Notes under the pieces: model-generated
What the model was told of the DNA's origin: nothing
The model's database searches: none
The model's input: only the letters and a program-made list of their open reading frames with translations
Part shown: piece by piece, positions 7,344-38,183 of the stretch
Numbering within the stretch: position 1 is the stretch's first letter
How the letters are laid out: each line of letters opens with the position of its first letter
DNA from: Salinivenus sp.
GTDB taxonomy: Bacteria > Bacteroidota > Rhodothermia > Rhodothermales > Salinibacteraceae
NCBI GenBank assembly: GCA_018609755.1
Contig: JAHENZ010000200.1
Location: forward strand, 1 to 38,821
Direction of reading: 5' to 3'
DNA: 38,821 bases
Translations under genes and position numbers: made by a program

Positions 7344-7374
7344 CGAAGTGTTTGACTTAGCAGCTCTCATTTTT

Positions 7375-8934
7375 ATGTCAACAGTGGAGTCGACGCGCGA
7401 TGGAACGGGCGGGTGGAGGAGAACAGCCTGTCGGTACGCCGAGCGGTTCGGATGGCCGGTCGTGCCGCTTCATCCCGGCGCCGAGCACGCTGAGGTCGAA
7501 GATCCAGCGATTGAACAGTTGGGGCATCGCCCCCTGGTGGACGTTCCCGACGGAGCATCCGCGCAGCCGGAGGTGATTCGTGGCTGGACGGGCATCCCGC
7601 GGCACGCCCCCCTCGGCCTCCTGACTGGAGCAGACTCGCAGATTGCTGCTCTCGAAATTCCCGAAGCCGAGAATACGACGCTGACCTCTACAGATCTCCA
7701 GCGGTTGCGGGAGGCTGTGCCCGACACGCGCCGTATCGATGGACCAAGGCGGACGTATCATCTCTTTTCTCGTCCCTCTGAATTGGACCTTCCCAGGTGT
7801 ACCCCGTTCTCCGACTCGCACGGCGGGCTGGTGCTGCACGGGGACCAGTCCGTCATTCGCGTTCCCAACTCAATTCACTCGCGGGACGCGTACCGCTGGG
7901 ATTGGACGTCGCCCGATGAGTTCGCTTCCTTTCCCGAATCGTTGCTCTCATTTTTCGGCGTCCGCGTTGACGCGGAGGCGTTGAGGGAGTGGCAAGAGAC
8001 ATTGACCGGTGCCTCGGGGTCCTCCCCGGAGTCCTCTTCCCACTCCTCCGGTGAGGGCAGCACACTGACGTTCCGTTCGGGAGCCCAGCTGGAGGCAACT
8101 GCGGAGGACGCGTCTCGTGGGATCGGACTTCCGGGGCTCGCTCCCGGCACTCTGTCGGTGCTCAGTGGGCCGCCCAAGACGGCGGGGAAGTCGACTTTTG
8201 TCCTGAACCTGGCTGCGCACCTAGCGGCGGGACACCCGTTTCTTGGGTTTGATCAGCAGCCGACCCGGGTCGTCATGTGGTCCGATTTACCGGCTTCCCG
8301 CTTCCGCGAGCATCTCCAGCAGATTGGAATCGGGCCAGAGGCGCGGGCTCGCTTGCACGTCCTTCATCCGCGCGATGCCGCCCCGTGTTCGTGGCAGGGG
8401 CTCCTTGCCCGGACGTTTGATCACGCCGTGCGCGAGAATGCCGGGCTCCTCTTGCTCGATTCTCTCGACCAGTTCGTACAGGTGAAGGGAGAAAGAGAAC
8501 CGACCAAATCGGCCGAACTGGCCCACATGCTCACGACGGAAGCGCCCTCCGAGTGCGCTGTACTGGCCGTGAAGGCCCTCCGGATCGCACTTCCCGTTCG
8601 GATGGAGGACGTGGTCGAACGGCTGGGGCTGCTCGGCACCGCCGCGGATCTCGTGCTCCAGATGGATCGGGGGCCGACCCGTGCACGCCCCACCCTCCGC
8701 CGCCTCCAGTGGACCGGGCGGCTCAGTCTTGCAACGTCGCACTTCCTCTGTGAAATGGTGCGCGGCCGCTACCGCCGTCTGCAGTCGGAGAAGCGAAGCG
8801 GATGGCGCGAACGGCAGATTGATGTGGAGGGAGGCGATTTGGATCCGCCGGAGCTTGATCCGGATCGAGACACCCTCATCTCATCACGCTCGCGATTGGA
8901 GACCGCAACGTCTTCCTCTCGTCGTCGACAGTGA
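7375..8934 (+). CDS. degenerate prim-pol-like domain fused to RepA/AAA_25-type RecA-like ATPase
   Basis: The N-terminal ~200 residues resemble the archaeo-eukaryotic prim-pol domain. Visible elements are CRYAERFGWPVVPLHPG, APLGLLTGADSQ, an RTYHLFSRP segment in the position of the usual GGxHxYF motif, and VLHGDQSVIRVPNSIHS followed by YRW. The position of the catalytic D-x-D is occupied by ALEIPE at about residues 92-97, so polymerase activity is probably lost. Residues ~255-470 form a RecA-like ATPase with the P-loop GPPKTAGKST (265-274) and Walker B LLLLDSLD (Asp ~362). The P-loop has one residue more than GxxxxGK. A Ser/Arg-rich tail ends the protein. It is like a plasmid or phage replication protein, but no origin, integrase or partition gene is nearby. 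An in-frame GTG at 7348 is the alternative start. Confidence 0.68.
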   Translation: MSTVESTRDGTGGWRRTACRYAERFGWPVVPLHPGAEHAEVEDPAIEQLGHRPLVDVPDGASAQPEVIRGWTGIPRHAPLGLLTGADSQIAALEIPEAENTTLTSTDLQRLREAVPDTRRIDGPRRTYHLFSRPSELDLPRCTPFSDSHGGLVLHGDQSVIRVPNSIHSRDAYRWDWTSPDEFASFPESLLSFFGVRVDAEALREWQETLTGASGSSPESSSHSSGEGSTLTFRSGAQLEATAEDASRGIGLPGLAPGTLSVLSGPPKTAGKSTFVLNLAAHLAAGHPFLGFDQQPTRVVMWSDLPASRFREHLQQIGIGPEARARLHVLHPRDAAPCSWQGLLARTFDHAVRENAGLLLLDSLDQFVQVKGEREPTKSAELAHMLTTEAPSECAVLAVKALRIALPVRMEDVVERLGLLGTAADLVLQMDRGPTRARPTLRRLQWTGRLSLATSHFLCEMVRGRYRRLQSEKRSGWRERQIDVEGGDLDPPELDPDRDTLISSRSRLETATSSSRRRQ

Positions 8935-12119: not shown

Positions 12120-12434
12120 GGGCACGGGATAGTCTCGACGAAACAGCCGAACTGCGTCGTCTCTCTGGCGACGGACTGCAGCTTACGATAGTGGTACTGC
12201 CGTAACGAACTAGAGCACCAAAAGATCAAGCGTAGACCGGGGATCTGCAAACGAAGCTGAAACAAATTGGCAAGACAGGCCGGGGGAGAGGAAAATGGGG
12301 GAAGTCCCGACAGAGAAGTGGGGGCGGTCTGTCCGGTCCGGATCAATTTGCAGAATGAAGGTTATATCGGTTCGAATTCGGTTTTACCGATTCGGTGTTC
12401 GGTTTGCTCTTCCCCCACCGATGGTTCCTACGCT
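12120..12434. other. divergent intergenic region, about 315 bp
   Basis: This separates the acyl-CoA dehydrogenase gene (minus) from the exported propeller protein gene (plus), so it should hold promoters for both. Short direct repeats of TTCGGTT-like sequence occur at about 12368-12408 (ggttcgaattcggtt, gattcggtgttcggtt). I could not assign promoter boxes with confidence, and no structured RNA was recognised. Confidence 0.35.
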
Positions 12435-15182
12435 GTGGTTCGCACTCTCCGTCTCCTCCCGATCACTCTCGCGCTGTTTGCTCTTGGGTTCTTCCAGGCT
12501 GTCCAGGCACAGATCCCATCCGAGGCTCAACCTCTCGACCTTTCGTCGGAAGAGGTGCAGCAAAAAAAGCGTCTGGTTCAGGGGCCCGACGGCTTTTCCA
12601 TTGAGCTTTACGCTGCTCCCCCTGAGGTCAACTATCCAGCAGCCATTACGGCCACGCCCGATGGCAATCTGTTTGTAGCGGTGGATGGAAACGCATCGCT
12701 GGGGCAGGACCCGGGCCGCGGCGAAATCTTGAAGGTACTGGATACCGACAACGACGGGCAGGCCGACCACTACTCGGTGTTCGTCGACAGCGTGGACAGC
12801 CCGCGCGGCCTCGTCTACGATGGAGAAACGCTGTACGTCATGCATCCGCCGACCCTGACTGCTTTTACGGATACGGACAGGGACGGGGTGGCCGACGAAC
12901 GCACGAATCTCGTGGAGGGACTGGGCTTCACGCTCGACTTCCGAGGGGCCGACCACACCACCAACGGTATGCAGATGGGCGTTGACGGGTGGCTCTACAT
13001 TTCTGTGGGAGACTACGGCTTTCTGAATGCGACGGGCACAGACGGGCGCCAGGTCAGCCATCGGGGCGGCGGCATCGTACGGGTGCGGCCCGACGGCACT
13101 GGACTGGAGGTCTACGCGACGGGCCTCCGCAACTCCTACGACGTGGCGATGACGCCGAGGCTTGATGGCTTCGTGCGGGACAACACGAACGACGGATACG
13201 GCTGGAATACGCGCCTGGAGCACGTTTTGCCGCAGGCTCACTTCGGGTATCCGAGTCAGTTTCTCCATTTTGCCGACGAGGTGATGCCTCCGCTGGCCGA
13301 TTACGGGGGCGGGTCGGGGACGGGGGCGCTGTACGTCGACGCGCCGGGGCTTCCCGACTCCCTCAGCAATACCCTCTATACGGTCGACTGGGGTCGGAGT
13401 GGCGTCTTTCGACACGACCTTGCTGCGCAGGGGGCGAGCTTTGAGCCCTCGCAGGAGGTCTTTCTCCGGATGCCCCAGCCCACCGACATGACGATCGACG
13501 GGCACTCAAATCTCTATCTGGCCAGTTGGATGGGGGCGAGCTTCACGTACGCTGGGGAAGACGTGGGCTTCATCGTGCGGCTGACCCACGAGAATGCTGA
13601 TTCGGGGACCGTCCCCGATTTTGCTGAAGCGAGCACGGACCGACTGGTAGAACTCCTCGCCGCCGAGCACAGTCTCTTTCGGCACCACGCTCAGCGTGAA
13701 CTACTGCGTCGGGATCTGAGTGAGGACGGAATTCAGAAGATCGCTGCAGTTGCCCGAGAGGACGGCCCGACCGACGGGCGCATCGCGGCTCTCTTCACGC
13801 TCAAGCAACTGCGGGGGGGCGGCAGCCATTCGCTCCTCACCGAGCTCACAGACGATCCGGCGCTCCGCGAGTTTGCCCTGCGCGCTCTTGCGGACCGGAA
13901 GACGCAGGCCGAGAATGTACCGACGGCCCCATTCGTAGAGGCCCTTTCTGCCGAGGATCCGCGGGTGCGTCTCCAGGCCGTGAATGGACTGGTTCGACTG
14001 GGGGCGCAGGACACGGCGGACGACATTGTGCCGCTCCTCACGGATCCCGATCGCTCGGTTTCTCACGTGGCGGTGCAGTCCCTGGTGGCGTTCGGTGCCG
14101 TGGAGCCGGCCCTGGACGCCGTGCGCCACGGCTCGCCCGGTCTCGTGCGGGGGGCAATGAAGGTGCTCGTGCGGCTGCACCGGGAGGAGACAGTGAACGG
14201 GCTGCAGGACATTCTGGAAAGTACGCCGGATCCCTTTACGCAGCGGCAGGTGGTGGCGGGGCTGGCGCGCCTTTTCCACAAAGAGAGGGAGGGGGACTGG
14301 ACTCCGGAGGAAGATTGGTGGGGGACCACGCCGAGTCCCCGCGGACCGTATCACGAGCCGGTAGCGTGGGCCGGAAGCGATCGCATTCATCCGCTGCTCC
14401 GGAGCGCGCTTCTCGACAGTGAAGACTACGAATATCGGCGGCGTGTCCAGCTGGTCGAGCGCAATCGGGCCATTCCGGATGGGGGCGGTGGGGTCCTGAT
14501 TGCTGCAGCATCCGATCGTCTCCGAACGCGGGCGGTCGATGCGCTGCTCGGCGAGGCGTTTGTGAGGGACGGCATGGTGGCGTCTCTCGATTCCCTTGCC
14601 GGACACTCCCTGGCTCTTCAGCGGGCCACCACCGACCTGCTCACCACACAACGCACGCTTCCGGCGGCGAGCGTATCTCTTCTCGGCGATGCGGTCCACG
14701 AGTCTGCTCTTCAGTCCACGGTGCGGGCGGAGGCGCTCCGGGCACTCTCGAACCTTCCGATCGATGAGACGCTGAGCGACGTGACCGACATTTATGCCCG
14801 CCTGCTCGATGACGCGGGGGCCCATGCTGCGCCTCTCACGGAAGCGATCCAGAACTACCTGGGACGGCGTCGCCACAGCGATCACGTCGATCATTTTGTG
14901 CAGATGGGAGCGGAAGATACGTCCGCTGAGCGGAAGCTGGCCTTCGGGGTCCTTCTGCACCTGGCCGAAAATGACGAACTCGACGATGACGTGCGGACGA
15001 CGGTCCAGCAGGCCGTGACGCAGGGATGGGGCGAATCGGCGCAGACATCGGCCCTGCTCTGGGCCATTGGATACACGAAAATGGAGGGGTATAACGAGCA
15101 GGTGCGCCAGCACGTAGAAAATGGAAGCACCGAAGACGTGAAAACCGCCGCACGGTACGCAGCCGACCGGCTCGGGCTGTAG
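12435..15182 (+). CDS. exported PQQ-dehydrogenase-like beta-propeller protein with HEAT repeats
   Basis: A 915-residue exported protein with a signal peptide (MVRTLRLLPITLALFALG...AVQA, cleavage near residue 25). Residues ~40-400 resemble the membrane-bound dehydrogenase / sugar dehydrogenase propeller family: GFSIELYAAPPEV, PAAITATPDGNLFVAVDG, DTDNDGQADHYSVF, TNGMQMGVDGWLYISVGDYG, GTGLEVYATGLRNSYDV, and LPDSLSNTLYTVDWG. After about residue 430 the rest is helical HEAT-like repeats (ALADRKTQAENVP..., LQAVNGLVRLGAQDTADDIVPLL). The related planctomycete-type proteins often end in a cytochrome c domain. I see no CxxCH here, so electron transfer would need another protein, or the role is binding. 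The GTG at 12435 is chosen because it places the signal peptide at the N-terminus. Confidence 0.75.
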   Translation: MVRTLRLLPITLALFALGFFQAVQAQIPSEAQPLDLSSEEVQQKKRLVQGPDGFSIELYAAPPEVNYPAAITATPDGNLFVAVDGNASLGQDPGRGEILKVLDTDNDGQADHYSVFVDSVDSPRGLVYDGETLYVMHPPTLTAFTDTDRDGVADERTNLVEGLGFTLDFRGADHTTNGMQMGVDGWLYISVGDYGFLNATGTDGRQVSHRGGGIVRVRPDGTGLEVYATGLRNSYDVAMTPRLDGFVRDNTNDGYGWNTRLEHVLPQAHFGYPSQFLHFADEVMPPLADYGGGSGTGALYVDAPGLPDSLSNTLYTVDWGRSGVFRHDLAAQGASFEPSQEVFLRMPQPTDMTIDGHSNLYLASWMGASFTYAGEDVGFIVRLTHENADSGTVPDFAEASTDRLVELLAAEHSLFRHHAQRELLRRDLSEDGIQKIAAVAREDGPTDGRIAALFTLKQLRGGGSHSLLTELTDDPALREFALRALADRKTQAENVPTAPFVEALSAEDPRVRLQAVNGLVRLGAQDTADDIVPLLTDPDRSVSHVAVQSLVAFGAVEPALDAVRHGSPGLVRGAMKVLVRLHREETVNGLQDILESTPDPFTQRQVVAGLARLFHKEREGDWTPEEDWWGTTPSPRGPYHEPVAWAGSDRIHPLLRSALLDSEDYEYRRRVQLVERNRAIPDGGGGVLIAAASDRLRTRAVDALLGEAFVRDGMVASLDSLAGHSLALQRATTDLLTTQRTLPAASVSLLGDAVHESALQSTVRAEALRALSNLPIDETLSDVTDIYARLLDDAGAHAAPLTEAIQNYLGRRRHSDHVDHFVQMGAEDTSAERKLAFGVLLHLAENDELDDDVRTTVQQAVTQGWGESAQTSALLWAIGYTKMEGYNEQVRQHVENGSTEDVKTAARYAADRLGL

Positions 15183-29452: not shown

Positions 29453-31927
29453 TCATAATACCCCGAGTGCATCGACGTCAATGGCCACGTGATAGCCGTT
29501 CGGCGGGGTGCCCTCCGCCTCACGAGCGCGACGCAGGGCATCCTGGAGGGGAGTTGCGCTTCCGCCCCGGATCTTGAGCAGGGTGCGGTACCGGTACTGC
29601 TTCTTCACGCGCTGAATGAAGGCAGGCTCCGGTCCCATCACCTCTACCGGGCCGGCATGGGTGCGAAGCGTCGTCGTCCAGTTCACGGCCAGGCGCTCCA
29701 CGCGCTCCTCCTTCGGGCCCCGAAACTCAACAGTTGCCACGTGCCCAAACGGCGGATAGCCGAACTGACGGCGTTCGGCGAGGGCCTCCTCCGCAAATCC
29801 CTCGTAGTCGTGCGAGGTGGCGTAGCGGATGGCTGGATGGTCGGGATTGCGGGTTTGCAGAATCACTTCGCCCTGGAGGTCGGCCCGACCGGCGCGACCC
29901 GCGACCTGCGTGAGGAGCTGAAACGTACGCTCCTCCGCGCGAAAGTCGGGGAAGAGGAGGCCCACGTCCGCGTCCACGACTCCCACCAGCGTCACGCGGC
30001 TAAAGTCAAGTCCCTTCGCGATCATTTGTGTGCCAAGGAGCACGTCGGCTCCGTTCCGGAACTGCTGGAGGATGTGGTGGTGGCCGTGCTTCTGGCTCGT
30101 GGTGTCACGGTCCATGCGGAGGATGGTGGCGTCGGGCACGACCGACTCGAGTTCATCCTCCACCCGCTGCGTGCCAACCCCGATCTGGCTGATGTCGCTG
30201 CCGCCGCATTGGGGACACTGCCGGGGGACCTGATTGGTGCGTCCGCAGTAGTGGCAGCGGAGCCGGCCCCGGCCGCCGTTCCGGTGCAGCGTAAGACTGA
30301 CGGAGCAGTCCCGGCATTCGGGGGCCCATCCACAGTCCTCGCACTCCAGCACCGGGGCGAAGCCGCGGCGGTTTTGCAAAAGGATCGTCTGCTCGCTCCG
30401 CTTCACTCGGGCCTGGATGGCGTCGCGGAGCGGATCGGCGAGGGCACCGTCGAGCTGGTGCTTCTTGCGCTGGAGCGTGAGGTCGAGCACGCGCACCTCC
30501 GGCAATGTGGCGGCCTCGCCGGAGGCATCGGGCACCCGCTCCGGCAATGCCAGTCGCTCGTACTTGCCCCAGCGCGCGTTCATGGTGCTCTCCAGGCTGG
30601 GAGTGGCCGAGCCGAGGATGCAGACGGCGTCGTTCATGTGCGCACGCATTACGGCCACGTCGCGGGCGTGGTAGCGCGGCGCCGGGTCGAACTGCTTGTA
30701 CGAGGTCTCGTGCTCCTCGTCGACCACGATGATCCCGAGGTCTTCCAGCGGCGCCAGCACGGCGGAGCGCGGGCCGATGGCGATGTGGGCCTGCCCGGTG
30801 CGCAGTTGGCGCCACGCGTCGTAGCGCTCGCCCATGTTCATCTGAGAGTGGAGGACGGCGATCTGGTCGCCGAAGTGCGAGCGGAAGCGCTGGACCGTCT
30901 GCGGCGTGAGGGCGATCTCCGGGACGAGGATGATACCGGTGCGGTCCCGTTCCAGCACGGCCTTGAGGGTGCGGATGTAGACCTCGGTTTTGCCGCTGCC
31001 GGTGATGCCGTGGAGCAGGAAGGTGCCGTAGCGGTGATCCTCCACGGCGTCGGTGACGGCGTCCAACGCGCGCTGCTGATCCGCCATCAGATCGTGATCC
31101 GGCGGCGGCTCGGGGGCGGGCAGGTCGTCGAGAGGCGAGCGCAGGACCTCCTTGTCCACCTTTTCGATCATGCCCTTGTCCACGAGGCTGCGGATGGTGG
31201 AGTAGGAGGCGTCGGCCCGCTCTACGACGTCGGCCTGCCGAGGCTCGGGTGTGCCTTCCTCTCGAAAGCCGGCGAGCGCCCGAATCACGGCCTTCTGCTT
31301 GGCGCCCCGCAGCTGCTCGATCAGGTCCGCGGCGGCCTCGCGGTGCTGGAAGGCCGGGGCGAAGCGGAGATGCGTTTCCGTCTTGGCGCTCACCTGCTCG
31401 TCCGAAAGGGTCGTCTCCATCTCGATCGCGCCGTCGGCCGCCATGCGGCGCACGAGGGCCAGGGGCACGGCGGGGCCCAGCCGCTTGCGGACGGCGGAGA
31501 GGGTCGTTTCGGGATGCTCGGCCAGATTCTGCAGTACGAGGCGGCCGACGTCGTGGTCGGCCCAGTCGCCGGGATCGGCGTCGGTGCGACGGAGTTCGTG
31601 CTGGCTTTCGACGGTGGTGCCGGCGGGGAGGGCCGCCTTTAGCGTCTCGCCCCAGCTGCAGACGTAGTAGTCGGCGATCCATTTCGTGAGGTCGAGCAGC
31701 TCCGGCGTGCAGGCCGGCACGTCGTCGAGCACGTCAATAACGTCCTTCACCGCGAAGTCGAGCGTATCTTCCGGCGGGCCCTCCTCCACGATCACCCCAG
31801 TCAGCCGGCGATTGCGGAGGGGCACCAGCACGCGGCAGCCCACCTGCGCCGCGTCGGCCATAGGGTCGGGCAGGCGATACGTATAGGCCCGGTCGACGGG
31901 AATCGGAAGGACGACGTTGACGGTCAC
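29453..31927 (-). CDS. priA: primosomal protein N' (replication restart helicase PriA)
   Basis: PriA recognises stalled forks and D-loops and reloads the replicative helicase. The 824-residue protein shows the N-terminal DNA-binding domain (VVLPIPVDRAYTYRLP, RVLVPLRNRRLTGVIV) and a helicase core. The core has Walker A GITGSGKTEVY, the DEEH box VVDEEHETSYKQ and motif III LGSATPSLES. The zinc-binding insert has paired cysteines (CEDCGWAPECRDC, CHYCG, CPQCGG). RMDRDTT, GTQMIAKGLDF and QVAGRAGR then follow. The start is GTG at 31927; no ATG lies in a better place. SSB, also in the window, is its known partner. It is divergent from the TonB-dependent receptor gene. Confidence 0.97.
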   Translation of the reverse strand: MTVNVVLPIPVDRAYTYRLPDPMADAAQVGCRVLVPLRNRRLTGVIVEEGPPEDTLDFAVKDVIDVLDDVPACTPELLDLTKWIADYYVCSWGETLKAALPAGTTVESQHELRRTDADPGDWADHDVGRLVLQNLAEHPETTLSAVRKRLGPAVPLALVRRMAADGAIEMETTLSDEQVSAKTETHLRFAPAFQHREAAADLIEQLRGAKQKAVIRALAGFREEGTPEPRQADVVERADASYSTIRSLVDKGMIEKVDKEVLRSPLDDLPAPEPPPDHDLMADQQRALDAVTDAVEDHRYGTFLLHGITGSGKTEVYIRTLKAVLERDRTGIILVPEIALTPQTVQRFRSHFGDQIAVLHSQMNMGERYDAWRQLRTGQAHIAIGPRSAVLAPLEDLGIIVVDEEHETSYKQFDPAPRYHARDVAVMRAHMNDAVCILGSATPSLESTMNARWGKYERLALPERVPDASGEAATLPEVRVLDLTLQRKKHQLDGALADPLRDAIQARVKRSEQTILLQNRRGFAPVLECEDCGWAPECRDCSVSLTLHRNGGRGRLRCHYCGRTNQVPRQCPQCGGSDISQIGVGTQRVEDELESVVPDATILRMDRDTTSQKHGHHHILQQFRNGADVLLGTQMIAKGLDFSRVTLVGVVDADVGLLFPDFRAEERTFQLLTQVAGRAGRADLQGEVILQTRNPDHPAIRYATSHDYEGFAEEALAERRQFGYPPFGHVATVEFRGPKEERVERLAVNWTTTLRTHAGPVEVMGPEPAFIQRVKKQYRYRTLLKIRGGSATPLQDALRRAREAEGTPPNGYHVAIDVDALGVL

Positions 31928-32165: not shown

Positions 32166-35100
32166 ATGAGAACGAACGACTGTGTCTTTGCGATATTTCT
32201 CCTTTCGTGTATTCTTTTTCTGGGTCCCGCGACGGCCGCCGCTCAGGGAACGGAAGCCTCCATCGCCGGAACGGTGATCGACGAGGCCAACGGAGAACCC
32301 CTTCCCGGTGCGACGGTCCAAGTGGAAAATACGGCGACCGGCTTTACCTCCGGCACCACCACCAACCAGCGCGGAGAGTTTAGCGTAGGGTCGCTTCCGC
32401 TGGGCCCATACGCGGTCACCGTGAGCTTCGTCGGATACGGCACTGAGCGCCGGACGGGCCTTCGGCTCACGCAGGGCGACGAGATCCAGATTGAGATCGT
32501 CGTGAGTGAGTCCACGCAGGAATTGCAGGAGGTTGTCGTCGAGGGAATGGAGTTTCGTAAACGGACGAAGCGACTCGACGCCAGCACGCACGTGACGGCC
32601 GAGCAGGTCGAGACCCTCCCGGCCCAGAACCGCGACTTTACGGATCTGATCAAGCTTTCCCCACGAACGGGAGGAGGATCCAACATCGCGGGCTACGACA
32701 ACCGATCCAACGCGATCACGATCGACGGGGTGAATTCCAAGGAATCGAACTTCGGCAACATCGGGGACTCGCCGTACGTCCTGTCGATGGAGGCGCTGCA
32801 GGAGTTTGAGGTTGTGACGAACAGCTACGACGTGACCGAGGGACGCGGCACGGCCGGGTCTGTCAAGGCCGTCACCAAGTCCGGGACCAATGAATTTAAG
32901 GGAACGGTTTTCGGCAACTTTTGGGACGCGCGGCTCGCGGCGGACACCGACCTTCAGGGCCGCAACTTCCAGCAGGACACCAAGTCCCAGCGCGGCTTCA
33001 CTGTCGGGGGACCGATTGTAGAGGACGAGCTTCACTTCTTCGCCGCCTACGACGGAGAGCGAAACAACCAGTCGTACAGCATCTGGGCGCAGAGCACCGA
33101 GCCCGGCATCATGCAGAACGGCATTGAGCAGCGGGCCAGTGAGGAGGCCGTCAATCGCATTCTGGAGATTGGACGGGAGAAGTACGGCGTCGATTCCAAT
33201 CAGCAGCAGACGGGCTTCTTCCAGCGCACCGTCCAGCTCGACACCTACCTCGCCCGCCTGGACTGGCAGGTGAACGACACCCACACGTTGACGGGGCGGT
33301 ACATCCACAATGACTTCGAAAAGCCAAACATGGACAACAGCCACATCTCCCGGCACGGGATCCACGCCCAGAGCTACGACCTCGTGTCCGAGGGACGGAA
33401 CGGGCTGTTGTCGCTCCGCTCCCAGTTTTCGTCGAACCTCCGGAACGACCTGAAGCTGGGCTACTACTGGAACCGGCGTGCCAACGTCTCGACGAACGGA
33501 CGCGTGCCCAACGCGTGGGTCGAGTTCACCTCGGAGGTGAACGGACAGCAGGAGCAGGCACGGATTTCGATTCGCGGGTACGAGTGGGTGCCCGAAGACC
33601 AGCGGAGCGAAACCTTCAGCCTCATCAACAACACCTACTACAGTACCGACTGGGCCGACTTCACCTTCGGCACCGAGAACACCTTCGTGGAGGCGTCCGG
33701 GCTCTGGACGCACGGACAGCAGGGCCGGTTCACGTTCAACAGCATTGAGGCACTGGAGAACATGAACCCGACCCGGTTCGAGCGCCGCGTGGCCACGGAG
33801 GGACGCCAGCTGACGGATCCGGTGAAGACGCGGCACCTGGAGCTGTCGGCCTACGCACAGGCTGAGATGGACATCACTCCGCGGTTGGAGGGGTTGTTTG
33901 GGCTTCGATACGACGTTGCCTACTTCATGACGTCGCCGAAGTACAATCCAGTACTCGAACAGGAGCTCGGGCTCCGCAACGACACCAAGCCCACCGACTG
34001 GGACAACATCCAGCCCCGCGTGGACCTCACCTGGGATGTCACTGGCGATGGTCGGAATATTCTGCAGGGCGGTGCCGGGTTTTTTCAGGGACAGACGATG
34101 ACGCGTCCCTATGCGCAGTCGGTCGTCTTCGACGGGCTCCGGTTCTACGAAGTGAAGGCCACTGGGGACGACGTGCCCACGCCCGATTACGAGGCGTATG
34201 AGGAGGACTTCACCAACATTCCGGGGCAGGAGCTGGCCCCGCCGGAGGAAGAGCGTCGGCAGGTCGTCCGCATGGTGGACTCGGACTTTGAGATGCCCTA
34301 CGCTTTCCGGGCCAACCTGAGCTATCACCGGTACCTGACGGACTGGTGGCGCGTGGGAGCGAGTCTATACTACAACCGGATCACGGACCTGCCCTACGTC
34401 ACGAACCCGAACCTGGCCACCGATCGCGGATTCCGGCTTAACGGTGAGGGTGGACGCCGCGTTTACACGCCGGAGAGTGCCCTCCGAGACGATCCGCGGG
34501 ACGGGTTCGAGCCGGACGCCTCCCGCATTTCGGATCGGTTCGCCGAGGTGTCGATGTACACCAGTGGGTACGAGCAGACCGGTCGCCAGCTTGTACTCGA
34601 AACTGACGTGCAGCTGCCCAACGACGGACGGGTGCGGCTCAGTTACACCCGAAATCAGTCCCTGGGGGCGGCGATCTACCACAACGAGGTCGACCACCGC
34701 TACATCGGTCGGGAGTACGACGACTTTGACTTCCTGAACGAGGGGCACTCTCAGGACGACTTCCTGAACAAGCTCCTCTTCGTCTTCACTTCCCCGGAAT
34801 TTGGGGGATTCCAGGCGAGCGGTTTCGTCAACTTGCTGCAGGGAGACCGCTACACGGCCACGATCGACGGGCGAACGAACGTGAGCGGACTGCCCGGCGA
34901 GCACGACTATCCGGCGTACGTGTTCGATCCGAACGACTCGGATACCCCAGACCAGATCGCGGAGGATATGGAGCACGTGCTCGAGAATGCCGACGAGCAC
35001 TATCAGGAGTACCTGCGCCGAAACATGGGCTCGTACGCGAGCCCCAACGGCGGCGTGAGCCCGTGGGAGCCGGAGGTCGACTTGCGGCTCGTGAAGCGGT

Positions 35101-35345
35101 TTGATCTTCCGTTGGGGAGCTACGGCGAGGAATTGGTCTTCAATGCCGACATCTTCAACGTCCTCAACCTCCTCAATTCGAGCTGGGGCGGCGAGCACAA
35201 CGTGATCGACACGCGCCTGCTCCAGGTGACCGGATACAACGCAGAGGAGAACCGGTACGAGTACCAGGTCAACCGGGACGCTGGGCAGCGGCGCTACGAG
35301 GGGCCCGGATTCCGCATGCGGTTCGGGCTCAAGTACCGCTTCTAA
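32166..35345 (+). CDS. TonB-dependent receptor with carboxypeptidase-regulatory-like domain
   Basis: An outer-membrane beta-barrel transporter of 1059 residues, powered by TonB. It has a signal peptide (residues 1-26, ending ATAAA before QGTE). A CarboxypepD_reg-like domain follows at ~30-115 (IAGTVIDEANGEPLPGATVQVENTATGFTSGTTTNQRGEF..., PYAVTVSFVGY). A VVVEG box leads to the plug domain (about 125-245, IDGVNSKESNFGN...), and the barrel ends in RMRFGLKYRF with a terminal aromatic residue. This is the Oar-like/SusC-like style of Bacteroidota; no SusD gene is present. The two downstream genes encode exported phosphodiesterase-type enzymes, which suggests that the ligand is a product of them. 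A hairpin with a modest T-rich tail follows. Confidence 0.9.
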   Translation: MRTNDCVFAIFLLSCILFLGPATAAAQGTEASIAGTVIDEANGEPLPGATVQVENTATGFTSGTTTNQRGEFSVGSLPLGPYAVTVSFVGYGTERRTGLRLTQGDEIQIEIVVSESTQELQEVVVEGMEFRKRTKRLDASTHVTAEQVETLPAQNRDFTDLIKLSPRTGGGSNIAGYDNRSNAITIDGVNSKESNFGNIGDSPYVLSMEALQEFEVVTNSYDVTEGRGTAGSVKAVTKSGTNEFKGTVFGNFWDARLAADTDLQGRNFQQDTKSQRGFTVGGPIVEDELHFFAAYDGERNNQSYSIWAQSTEPGIMQNGIEQRASEEAVNRILEIGREKYGVDSNQQQTGFFQRTVQLDTYLARLDWQVNDTHTLTGRYIHNDFEKPNMDNSHISRHGIHAQSYDLVSEGRNGLLSLRSQFSSNLRNDLKLGYYWNRRANVSTNGRVPNAWVEFTSEVNGQQEQARISIRGYEWVPEDQRSETFSLINNTYYSTDWADFTFGTENTFVEASGLWTHGQQGRFTFNSIEALENMNPTRFERRVATEGRQLTDPVKTRHLELSAYAQAEMDITPRLEGLFGLRYDVAYFMTSPKYNPVLEQELGLRNDTKPTDWDNIQPRVDLTWDVTGDGRNILQGGAGFFQGQTMTRPYAQSVVFDGLRFYEVKATGDDVPTPDYEAYEEDFTNIPGQELAPPEEERRQVVRMVDSDFEMPYAFRANLSYHRYLTDWWRVGASLYYNRITDLPYVTNPNLATDRGFRLNGEGGRRVYTPESALRDDPRDGFEPDASRISDRFAEVSMYTSGYEQTGRQLVLETDVQLPNDGRVRLSYTRNQSLGAAIYHNEVDHRYIGREYDDFDFLNEGHSQDDFLNKLLFVFTSPEFGGFQASGFVNLLQGDRYTATIDGRTNVSGLPGEHDYPAYVFDPNDSDTPDQIAEDMEHVLENADEHYQEYLRRNMGSYASPNGGVSPWEPEVDLRLVKRFDLPLGSYGEELVFNADIFNVLNLLNSSWGGEHNVIDTRLLQVTGYNAEENRYEYQVNRDAGQRRYEGPGFRMRFGLKYRF

Positions 35346-35374
35346 CCCGTGGGAACGAGACGCCGAGAGCGCAG

Positions 35375-35405
35375 GGGGCCGCCGGTTGGCGGTCCCTTGT
35401 CTCTT
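35375..35405 (+). terminator. possible terminator after the receptor gene
   Basis: GGGGCCGCC (35375-35383) pairs with GGCGGTCCC (35388-35396) over a GGTT loop (one G-T pair) and is followed by TTGTCTCTT. The tail is only partly T-rich, so termination may be incomplete and allow read-through into the PI-PLC gene. Confidence 0.45.
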
Positions 35406-35490
35406 CGGAAACGTTTCTTTGCGAAAGAGCCGAACCGAAGAGATATTCTCCTTCCCCACCGCCTTTTTCTTTCGACGCCCCCTTTTGACG

Positions 35491-36681
35491 ATGCGCACCC
35501 TCTTTCCAATTCTCCTGACGTTTCTTTTGCTTCCGGGCCTCACCCCCGCGGTTTCGCATCAGTCCTCGGGGGATGAGACCGAAGAACACGAACAGGCCGG
35601 GATCGTCCCCGACACCGTCGATCTTCGCCTCAACGACATTCAGGTGCTCGGGAGTCACAACAGCTACAAGGTGGCCATCGACTCGTCGCTGATGTCGATT
35701 TTGCGGGAGCGCCGGCCGGAGCTGGCGCGGGCCCTTGAGTACGCCCATCCGCCCCTTCAGGAGCAGCTGAACGCCGGGCTGCGCAACCTGGAACTCGATG
35801 TGTACCACGATCCGGAGGGGGGCCGCTACGCCGATCCGTACGGCCTCGAGCTCGTGGACGAACAGGGCCTGCCGCCCGGCCCGCCGTACGATCCGGAGGA
35901 CCGGATGGACGAGCCCGGATTCAAGGTGTTGCACATCCAGGACCTCGACTTTCGGAGCAACTGCCTCACGTTCCAGCGCTGTCTCCGCAACGTGAAGCAG
36001 TGGTCCGACGCGCATCCCGATCATCTCCCCATCGTGATTACCCTCAACGCCAAAGACGACACTCTCGACCTTCCGCAGGCCACGCCCCCACTCCCCTTCG
36101 ACGCGGCAGCCTTCGACGCGCTCGACGCGGAGATTCGCGCCGTCTTTTCGGCGGACGAGATCATTCGCCCCGACGACGTACGCGGCGAGTATGAGACCTT
36201 AGAGGCGGCCGTCCGGGCCGACGCATGGCCGACGCTGGATGCGGTTCGGGGGTCGGTTCTGTTTGTTCTGGACCAGTCCGGTCGGAAGCTGGAGGCGTAT
36301 CGAAAGGACCATCCGTCGCTACGGAACCGCGTCATGTTTGCCGACGCCCCGAAAGGCACACCGGAGGCTGCCGTTCACATCGTGAACGAGCCGATCGAGA
36401 AGGGCGACCGGATCCGCTCCCTCGTGGACGCCGGGTACATGGTGCGCACCCGTGCAGACGCCGGGACCGTGGAGGCGCGAGAGGACGATCCCCGGCGGAA
36501 AGAGGCGGCCTTTGCGAGTGGGGCGCAGGTGGTGACCACAGACTATTTCCGGCCGGATCCGGCGATGGGCACAGACTATCAGGTGTCGTTGCCGGGGAGC
36601 GAGCCGGGCCGGTGCAACCCCGTGACTGCTCCCGCCGACTGTGAACGGGCCTGGGTTGTGGGCAACCGTTCAGACGATTGA
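35491..36681 (+). CDS. Ca2+-dependent phosphoinositide-specific phospholipase C-like protein
   Basis: A 396-residue exported phosphodiesterase of the Ca2+-dependent bacterial PI-PLC family, in which a TIM barrel cleaves phosphatidylinositol or a related phosphodiester. It has a signal peptide (MRTLFPILLTFLLLPGLTPAVS). First catalytic His56 is in QVLGSHNSYK. The putative Ca2+ ligands Glu101 and Asp103 are in RNLELDVYHDPEGGR. Second catalytic His148 is in FKVLHIQDLDF. NVKQWSDAHPDHLPIVITLNAK and VLFVLDQSGRK follow, as in the family. The ATG at 35491 gives the signal peptide. It lies 145 bp after the receptor gene and 62 bp before the PHP gene, all on the same strand. Confidence 0.85.
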   Translation: MRTLFPILLTFLLLPGLTPAVSHQSSGDETEEHEQAGIVPDTVDLRLNDIQVLGSHNSYKVAIDSSLMSILRERRPELARALEYAHPPLQEQLNAGLRNLELDVYHDPEGGRYADPYGLELVDEQGLPPGPPYDPEDRMDEPGFKVLHIQDLDFRSNCLTFQRCLRNVKQWSDAHPDHLPIVITLNAKDDTLDLPQATPPLPFDAAAFDALDAEIRAVFSADEIIRPDDVRGEYETLEAAVRADAWPTLDAVRGSVLFVLDQSGRKLEAYRKDHPSLRNRVMFADAPKGTPEAAVHIVNEPIEKGDRIRSLVDAGYMVRTRADAGTVEAREDDPRRKEAAFASGAQVVTTDYFRPDPAMGTDYQVSLPGSEPGRCNPVTAPADCERAWVVGNRSDD

Positions 36682-36743
36682 GCGTGCGACGACTTCTTGG
36701 AGTCGACTAAATGCACTCTTTTGAACCTGTTCCCATAGATCTG

Positions 36744-37793
36744 ATGTTGAAACGAGTTGCCATTCTTTTTCTGATCCTACCGGTCGTTTTGCCCCACGCT
36801 GTGGTTGCCCAAGACAAAGTGATCGTGTCCAATCCCTACGCGGACGTTGACTGGGGCGCCGAGCATCGGAAGGCCAACTTCCACACGCACACGACCGAGT
36901 CGGACGGGGCACAGGACCCGAGTACCGTCATCGACGGTTACCACTCTCACGACTACAACGTGCTGGCGCTGACTGATCACAACCACGTGACGTGGCCCTG
37001 GGACGAGTACGGGCAAAATCCCGAACAGCTCGGCATGCTCCCCATTCCGGGCAATGAGCTCTCGCGACACAACCACAACCTCAGCCTCTTCACCGAGTAT
37101 CCGTCGCCGCTTCGGGAGGCGTCCACCGATCGGCTTCACACGTCGATCCCGGAGGTGGCTGAGACTGGGGGGCTGAACGTGCTCGCCCACCCTGGGCGCT
37201 ACTGGGAACCGGGCGACGACCGAGTGCCCGACGATGCGCTTGCGAAGTACATGGGTCTCTTCTACCGGTACGATACGCTGGTGGGGATGGAGGTGCACAA
37301 CCAGACGGACCGCTACCCTCACGACCGGCGCCTGTGGGACGCGCTACTGGAGGAGTTGATGCCGGAGCGCCCGGTGTGGGGCTTCGCCAACGACGACAGC
37401 CACGAGGAGCTCCACATTGGGCTCAATGCCAGCTGGTTCCCGCTGCAAACGTTGTCCCGGTCCACCATCCGCGCCGCCGTCGAAAACGGTCAGTTCTACT
37501 TCAGCACCGTGACGACCCACCCCGAGTCGGAGCAGGATTTGCGGCGTACGCCGAAGATTACGGAGGTGTCGTACGACCGGGAGGCCAACGTGCTCACCCT
37601 CGCCGCCGAGGTGAACGGCACACCCGTGGATGGGGAACAGGTGCAGTGGATTTCCAATCGGGGCGAGGTCGTAGGGGAGGGGCGCCGCATTTCTCTCGAC
37701 GACACGGATGGGTTGAGCACCTACCTCCGGGCCGAGATCCGAAGCGACGGCGCACTGACGTACACCCAGCCGTTCGGGCTCGGGGAGCGGTAA
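36744..37793 (+). CDS. exported PHP-domain phosphoesterase
   Basis: A 349-residue protein with signal peptide MLKRVAILFLILPVVLPHAVVAQ. A PHP metal-dependent phosphoesterase core follows: ANFHTHTTESDG (His47, His49, Asp54), NVLALTDHNHVTW (Asp78, His79), IPGNELSRHNHNLSLF, GLNVLAHPGRYW and VWGFANDDSHEELHIG. These are the usual metal ligands of the family (HxH, D-H, E, H, D-H). A C-terminal beta-rich region (LTLAAEVNGTPVDGEQVQWI) may be an extra domain. PHP proteins include phosphatases and nucleases. An exported one beside a PI-PLC-like enzyme suggests breakdown of inositol phosphates or other phosphomonoesters. The start at 36744 is chosen for the signal peptide; 36711 is an upstream alternative. 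Confidence 0.83.
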   Translation: MLKRVAILFLILPVVLPHAVVAQDKVIVSNPYADVDWGAEHRKANFHTHTTESDGAQDPSTVIDGYHSHDYNVLALTDHNHVTWPWDEYGQNPEQLGMLPIPGNELSRHNHNLSLFTEYPSPLREASTDRLHTSIPEVAETGGLNVLAHPGRYWEPGDDRVPDDALAKYMGLFYRYDTLVGMEVHNQTDRYPHDRRLWDALLEELMPERPVWGFANDDSHEELHIGLNASWFPLQTLSRSTIRAAVENGQFYFSTVTTHPESEQDLRRTPKITEVSYDREANVLTLAAEVNGTPVDGEQVQWISNRGEVVGEGRRISLDDTDGLSTYLRAEIRSDGALTYTQPFGLGER

Positions 37794-37945: not shown

Positions 37946-38183
37946 CGGCCTAATGGCCGTATGTTACTGCACTGCAGAAGGGCGGGGCGAACGAGCGGCC
38001 TTCAGTGTCCTGCCTCAACTGCAGATGCAGTCGGTGGAGATCCACTTTGTGAGATTGAGCAGTTCCGCTAGGCGGAAGGGGAGATGCGGGCCGTCCGATA
38101 CGGCAGGTCGGCTCGTCGAGTGTCGAGATACGGCCTTCTGGCAGGAGCCCGGCGCCCGGGCCAGGAGCCGGGCCGGTTTTTTT
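37946..38183 (+). ncRNA. candidate structured RNA with terminator
   Basis: Successive hairpins are visible on the plus strand. CGGCC/GGCCG is at 37946-37959. CACTG-CAG-AAGG paired with CCTT-CAGTG is at 37970-38007. ACTGC/GCAGT is at 38018-38031, TTCCGC/GCGGAA at 38063-38077 and GCCGT/ACGGC at 38090-38104. The terminator is at 38147-38183. There is no open frame with coding character. It may be a small RNA of its own or a long structured 3' UTR of the PHP gene. No known RNA family was recognised (SRP, tmRNA and RNase P consensus blocks are absent). Confidence 0.35.
38147..38183 (+). terminator. rho-independent terminator
   Basis: GCCCGGC (38147-38153) pairs with GCCGGGC (38167-38173), and after CCGG-like bases a run of seven Ts follows at 38177-38183. 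It lies 354 bp beyond the PHP gene stop. Confidence 0.75.

Follow-up and report, generated by a model that had tools for sequence, protein, structure and literature searches.

The stretch of DNA analysed here, referred to as the window (38,821 nucleotides; contig JAHENZ010000200.1 of GenBank assembly GCA_018609755.1, Salinivenus sp., Salinibacteraceae), carries in a row on its forward strand three genes encoding a TonB-dependent receptor, a phosphatidylinositol-specific phospholipase C (PI-PLC) and a phosphoesterase of the PHP family. This trio is probably a locus for the scavenging of inositol phosphodiesters that resembles phosphate utilisation system I (PUSI) of Flavobacterium johnsoniae, with an Oar-like receptor replacing SusCD and a PHP-family enzyme replacing the metallophosphoesterase, and it would be a variant form of a nutrient-scavenging strategy that is already known.

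The three gene products and their likeness to PUSI

The product of the central gene (positions 35491-36681, + strand, 396 aa) is a predicted exported Ca2+-dependent PI-PLC, as judged from its sequence and structural model. It matched positions 1-329 of the 329 in the PF16670 (PI-PLC-C1) profile with E 7e-131 and 436.6 bits, against a gathering threshold of 29.9. The catalytic set H56, N57, E101, D103 and H148 is present and near-invariant in an alignment of 59 rows, where H56, N57, D103 and H148 vary only by gaps and E101 is replaced by Lys in two rows; the catalytic His pair and the acidic Ca2+ ligands are roles assigned from what is known of PI-PLCs. A third acidic position, 186, is Glu in 40 of the 59 rows and Asn in the remaining 19, the window enzyme (N186) belonging to this minority of the homologues; the split suggests that there may be two types of metal site among these homologues. 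An AlphaFold2 model obtained from twelve sequences (predicted template modelling score 0.78) gave as best structural matches the Ca2+-dependent PI-PLCs 5FYR, 5FYP, 5FYO and 3H4W, with E values from 1e-13 to 1e-12. Fold and family are thus shared with the enzymes of Streptomyces antibioticus (3H4W) and Pseudomonas sp. (5FYO), the structural alignment giving identities of about 15-18%.

The receptor gene (32166-35345, + strand, 1059 aa) precedes the PI-PLC gene, and its product is, on its domain content, of the Oar-like TonB-dependent type without a SusD partner: PF25183 (OMP_b-brl_4, E 1.3e-40) and PF13620 (CarboxypepD_reg, E 2e-21) were detected, together with a weak Plug match, and the open reading frame list shows no SusD gene between receptor and PI-PLC. 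Assignment to SusC/RagA was rejected, TIGR04056 reaching 61.2 bits against a cut-off of 368 and only over the N-terminal part. Counting the window genome, 15 of the 395 phylum genomes had a full-length relative of this receptor (E below 1e-100). Seventeen loci of this receptor type were compared, the window left out and one locus of the family search (L055) included: in 12 of them a gene of PF01663, GDPD or metallophosphoesterase type stood no more than two genes away, whereas this was so for 0 of 27 control receptors (paralogues of the window's family). The comparison is to be read knowing that some of the test loci went into the search profiles, that four of the twelve resemble one locus in related genomes, and that the control receptors too are partly orthologous. 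The window receptor is a probable, divergent member of this phosphodiesterase-linked clade. Furthermore, the receptor type and PI-PLC occurred in the same genome 6 times vs 1.0 expected (p 2e-4), or 5 vs 0.9 (p 1e-3) without the window genome. As an observation in its own right, the Bacteroidota Oar-like receptors found beside GDPD, PF01663 or metallophosphoesterase genes (L055, L157-L172) are candidate glycerophosphodiester receptors.

The third gene (36744-37793, + strand) encodes a 349-aa product, or one of 360 aa if translation starts at ATG 36711, that is a predicted exported PHP-family (CehA/McbA) phosphoesterase; all five PHP motifs (HTHTTESDG, LTDHNH, PGNE, LAHPG and NDDSH) are intact. 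The Pfam PHP profile gave 21.9 bits, under its cut-off of 26.4. Prediction of the structure from the single sequence failed, with a mean predicted local distance difference test score of 35.9.

The order and strand of the three genes described in an earlier note on this DNA agree with the open reading frames, as do its spacers of 145 and 62 bp with starts at ATG 35491 and ATG 36744; the alternative PHP start would shorten the second spacer to 29 bp. The trio most likely forms a single transcription unit. The terminator scan, which performed at chance overall (6 sites found vs 5.2 expected), placed no terminator-like site in either spacer and its best one beyond the trio, a hairpin followed by seven T residues at 38154-38173 (+ strand), 361 bp past the PHP stop, which is a candidate end of that unit. 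Export of the three proteins is predicted from a signal-peptide-like hydrophobic stretch recognised by eye at each N-terminus. A lipobox Cys was absent from all three N-termini on reading of the sequences.

The analysis establishes the gene content, the protein families and the intact catalytic motifs, the return of receptor, PI-PLC and phosphatase together in other phyla, and the connection of one PI-PLC operon (L107, below) with inositol catabolism, and published work has shown that phosphate depletion induces the related PUSI genes. What we infer for the present locus is its substrate, the sequence of reactions, where they take place, and that the genes are transcribed together and regulated by phosphate, which is the more likely prize in this organism. 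The receptor would import an inositol phosphodiester (glycerophosphoinositol, phosphatidylinositol or a related head group) over the outer membrane with TonB energy; the Ca2+-dependent PI-PLC would then cleave it in the periplasm to an inositol phosphate (cyclic or 1-phosphate) and glycerol or diacylglycerol, and the PHP enzyme would open this product or remove its phosphate, yielding inositol and phosphate. The harvest of inositol phosphates or phosphate proposed in the earlier note gains support from the independent gene neighbourhoods in several phyla described below, whereas receptor import followed by periplasmic cleavage is more likely than its placement of the process on the cell surface, because neither enzyme has a lipobox and a periplasmic location is predicted for those of PUSI.

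PUSI, encoded by Fjoh_4168-4173 of F. johnsoniae, comprises a SusCD-type receptor (PusCD1), a PF16670 PI-PLC and a PF00149 metallophosphoesterase; its genes are strongly induced by phosphate depletion, its enzymes are predicted to be periplasmic, and it has been proposed that organic phosphorus is taken up and then hydrolysed in the periplasm (PMC8115612). Both PUSI and the window combine in one locus a TonB-linked receptor, a PI-PLC matching PF16670 and a second exported phosphoesterase. They differ in the receptor, SusCD in PUSI and Oar-like in the window, and in the second enzyme, which in the window is a PHP-family protein instead of one of PF00149. In addition, the PUSI-matching loci found in this analysis carry sigma/anti-sigma genes, unlike the window, and phosphate induction has been demonstrated for PUSI but is a prediction for the window locus. 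The remark of the earlier note that it knew of no described locus with exactly this trio has to be corrected, PUSI being a close described relative, with SusCD and a metallophosphoesterase (PMC8115612). In Table 1 of that paper the Pfam accessions of Fjoh_4172 and Fjoh_4173 seem swapped relative to their descriptions.

Recurrence of the gene partners

PI-PLC genes were present in 27 of the 395 phylum genomes. In 18 of the 23 genomes evaluated, SusC/SusD lay at most four genes away from them, vs 1.43 expected (P about 1e-18), an expectation derived from SusD density for genomes that are mutually related; with one genome per family the association was found in 5 of 7 (P 7e-6). Metallophosphoesterases and alkaline phosphatases are among the neighbours of these PI-PLC genes.

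The PHP partner also recurs. Of 23 PI-PLC loci sampled in family f20, 21 had SusC/SusD and 12 had a PHP gene in the SusC-SusD-PI-PLC cluster, the latter being a frequency inside loci picked for holding PI-PLC and not a test. A plasmid of Hymenobacter volaticus (L193) has the arrangement SusC-SusD-PI-PLC-CehA/McbA. These operons (L095, L121, L125, L128 and others in f20, and L193) share with the window the three functional classes in one direction and, where tested, the NCBIfam family of the PHP protein, both f20 proteins checked being NF038032 (CehA/McbA); they differ in having a SusC/SusD pair, often an extra alkaline phosphatase (AlkP), and another PHP subfamily. A further such arrangement is that of Luteimonas suaedae (L010, 5118-10480), where receptor, PI-PLC and PHP follow one another in the order and direction of the window with a single receptor lacking SusD. 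There the receptor has a classical TonB_dep_Rec barrel, and the PHP gene overlaps that of PI-PLC by ATGA and encodes an N-terminal extension of about 150 aa.

Outside the phylum, receptor and PI-PLC genes occurred together in plasmid or genome records of Sphingomonas, where they overlap by 1 bp, Granulicella, two Novosphingobium, Catenovulum, Zymomonas, Pseudoalteromonas and Luteimonas. Several of these pairs are accompanied by another phosphatase, such as the histidine-phosphatase-superfamily gene that follows them in Novosphingobium, and the phosphatases that fill the slot include AlkP, Metallophos and His_Phos_2. Plasmid pACIX901 of Granulicella tundricola (L195) likewise has an Oar-like receptor (OMP_b-brl_4 and CarboxypepD_reg) directly 5' of PI-PLC; this receptor is distantly similar to that of the window (84 bits), and no PHP gene appears in the annotation of the locus, which is incomplete.

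Alternative readings and points against the assignment

That the locus would serve the acquisition of inositol carbon (or that of glycerol or fatty acids) instead of phosphorus, with phosphate as a by-product, is an unlikely explanation, although it draws on several related loci. In a class-level relative (L107, 509-7183), SusC-SusD-PI-PLC genes are followed by a CUT2-type sugar ABC transporter, IolG (351 bits against a cut-off of 355) and an IolB-like gene (85 bits against 205), an operon whose sequence points to myo-inositol as a product. Another locus of family f16 (L114) has Gfo/Idh/MocA and DUF6807 genes downstream, and the family genome G002, which holds a SusC-SusD-PHP cluster, has iolG. 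On the other hand, no iolG match at E 1e-60 was found in the window genome (96% complete), in G017 or in four further genomes of the genus. Inositol catabolism through the IolG route is unlikely in the window organism, and phosphate is the more likely prize there because no iolG was found in its genome. Furthermore, the PUSI genes answer to phosphate depletion (PMC8115612), and the partners that recur are phosphatases. Some relatives may also gain inositol carbon, and the L107 operon, taken by itself, ties PI-PLC directly to inositol catabolism.

Several observations weigh against the assignment of the trio as a PUSI-like scavenging locus. Scanning of the upstream region revealed nothing convincing as an Escherichia coli-type Pho box or a canonical sigma-70 promoter, and the 145-bp spacer between receptor and PI-PLC could accommodate a separate promoter. 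The trio as a conserved feature of the family had to be rejected, since it was missing in all 26 other genomes of the family sample (27 genomes, the window's included). PI-PLC was found there only in the window genome and in G017, whose copy (L056, 7059-14408; 73% identical) stands alone, with no adjoining receptor, and is flanked by genes for a methyltransferase and a P-type ATPase, both named by sequence reading. A strong PHP match was similarly confined to the window genome and G002, where the gene comes after SusC-SusD. The PHP protein itself passes NF038032 (CehA/McbA) marginally, with 81.9 bits against a cut-off of 80, and its counterparts in other trios are distant: identity to the Hymenobacter protein was 26% over 186 aa, and no real pairwise match was obtained with the f20 protein compared. 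In the receptor tree, the window protein forms a long branch (1.45) beside the phosphodiesterase-linked clade, which makes this tie insecure.

Among the other genomes of the family, the best receptor match shares 35% identity. The trio is thus a rare arrangement in its family, and perhaps an acquired one. The survey of relatives that the earlier note had put forward as a check of its proposal therefore gave a mixed outcome, with absence from the family and recurrence in other Bacteroidota families and in Proteobacteria. Since the PHP proteins of other trios are distant from that of the window, PHP proteins may have entered this slot on more than one occasion.

The isolation of the trio in its family, the longer spacer and the solitary G017 gene are also what would be expected of chance neighbours, in which case two or all three of the exported genes would be unrelated, each with its own promoter and role, in genomes where receptor genes are abundant (as many as about 30 scored matches in one genome). 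We consider this quite improbable, as the same three classes come together again in Luteimonas, Hymenobacter and family f20, and the receptor and PI-PLC pair recurs in Acidobacteriota and in Alpha- and Gammaproteobacteria. A secreted lipase directed against prey or eukaryotic membranes, with the receptor importing freed lipid or glycan parts, is highly improbable: some bacterial PI-PLCs cleave phosphatidylinositol and glycosylphosphatidylinositol anchors and no retention signal is visible in the window enzyme, but the neighbourhoods in the lineages seen are of nutrient type, no secretion-system or toxin genes adjoin the trio, and the enzymes of PUSI are predicted to stay in the periplasm.

Genomic setting and a possible wider module

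Upstream of the receptor lies a divergent priA gene (29453-31927), 80-89% identical to priA of the same genus where this was recovered whole. Contamination of the contig was considered and found unsupported, since its priA is typical of the genus and the contig is no obvious contaminant. In GC content the trio matches the window (62.5% vs 62.1%). Elsewhere in the window, positions 7348-8934 encode a protein with Prim-Pol and AAA_25 domains, possibly derived from a mobile element, and positions 12267-15182 a 971-aa protein of unknown function with DUF7133 and HEAT repeats. In G017, about 4 kb separate the PI-PLC gene (L056) from one for a patatin-Omp85 phospholipase.

The cross-phylum breadth of receptor, PI-PLC and phosphatase is undescribed in the literature searched and is a more interesting result than the window locus itself; the search for PI-PLC with SusD or TonB, most subscription journals lying beyond its reach, returned the work on phosphate utilisation systems only. 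We tentatively suggest that these genes constitute a widespread inositol-phosphodiester module of Bacteroidota, Acidobacteriota and Proteobacteria, in which receptors (SusCD, Oar-like or classical TonB-dependent) and phosphatases (PHP, AlkP, Metallophos or His_Phos_2) interchange, with PHP as the phosphatase dedicated to the second step, on (cyclic) inositol phosphate. If this were true, bacterial PI-PLC-C1 enzymes would largely be nutrient enzymes partnered with outer-membrane receptors, and the phosphate utilisation systems of Flavobacterium would extend to other phyla. Furthermore, inositol phosphate would become a testable candidate substrate for PHP (CehA/McbA) proteins that so far lack one, and a substrate class would be suggested for the orphan clade of Oar-like receptors.

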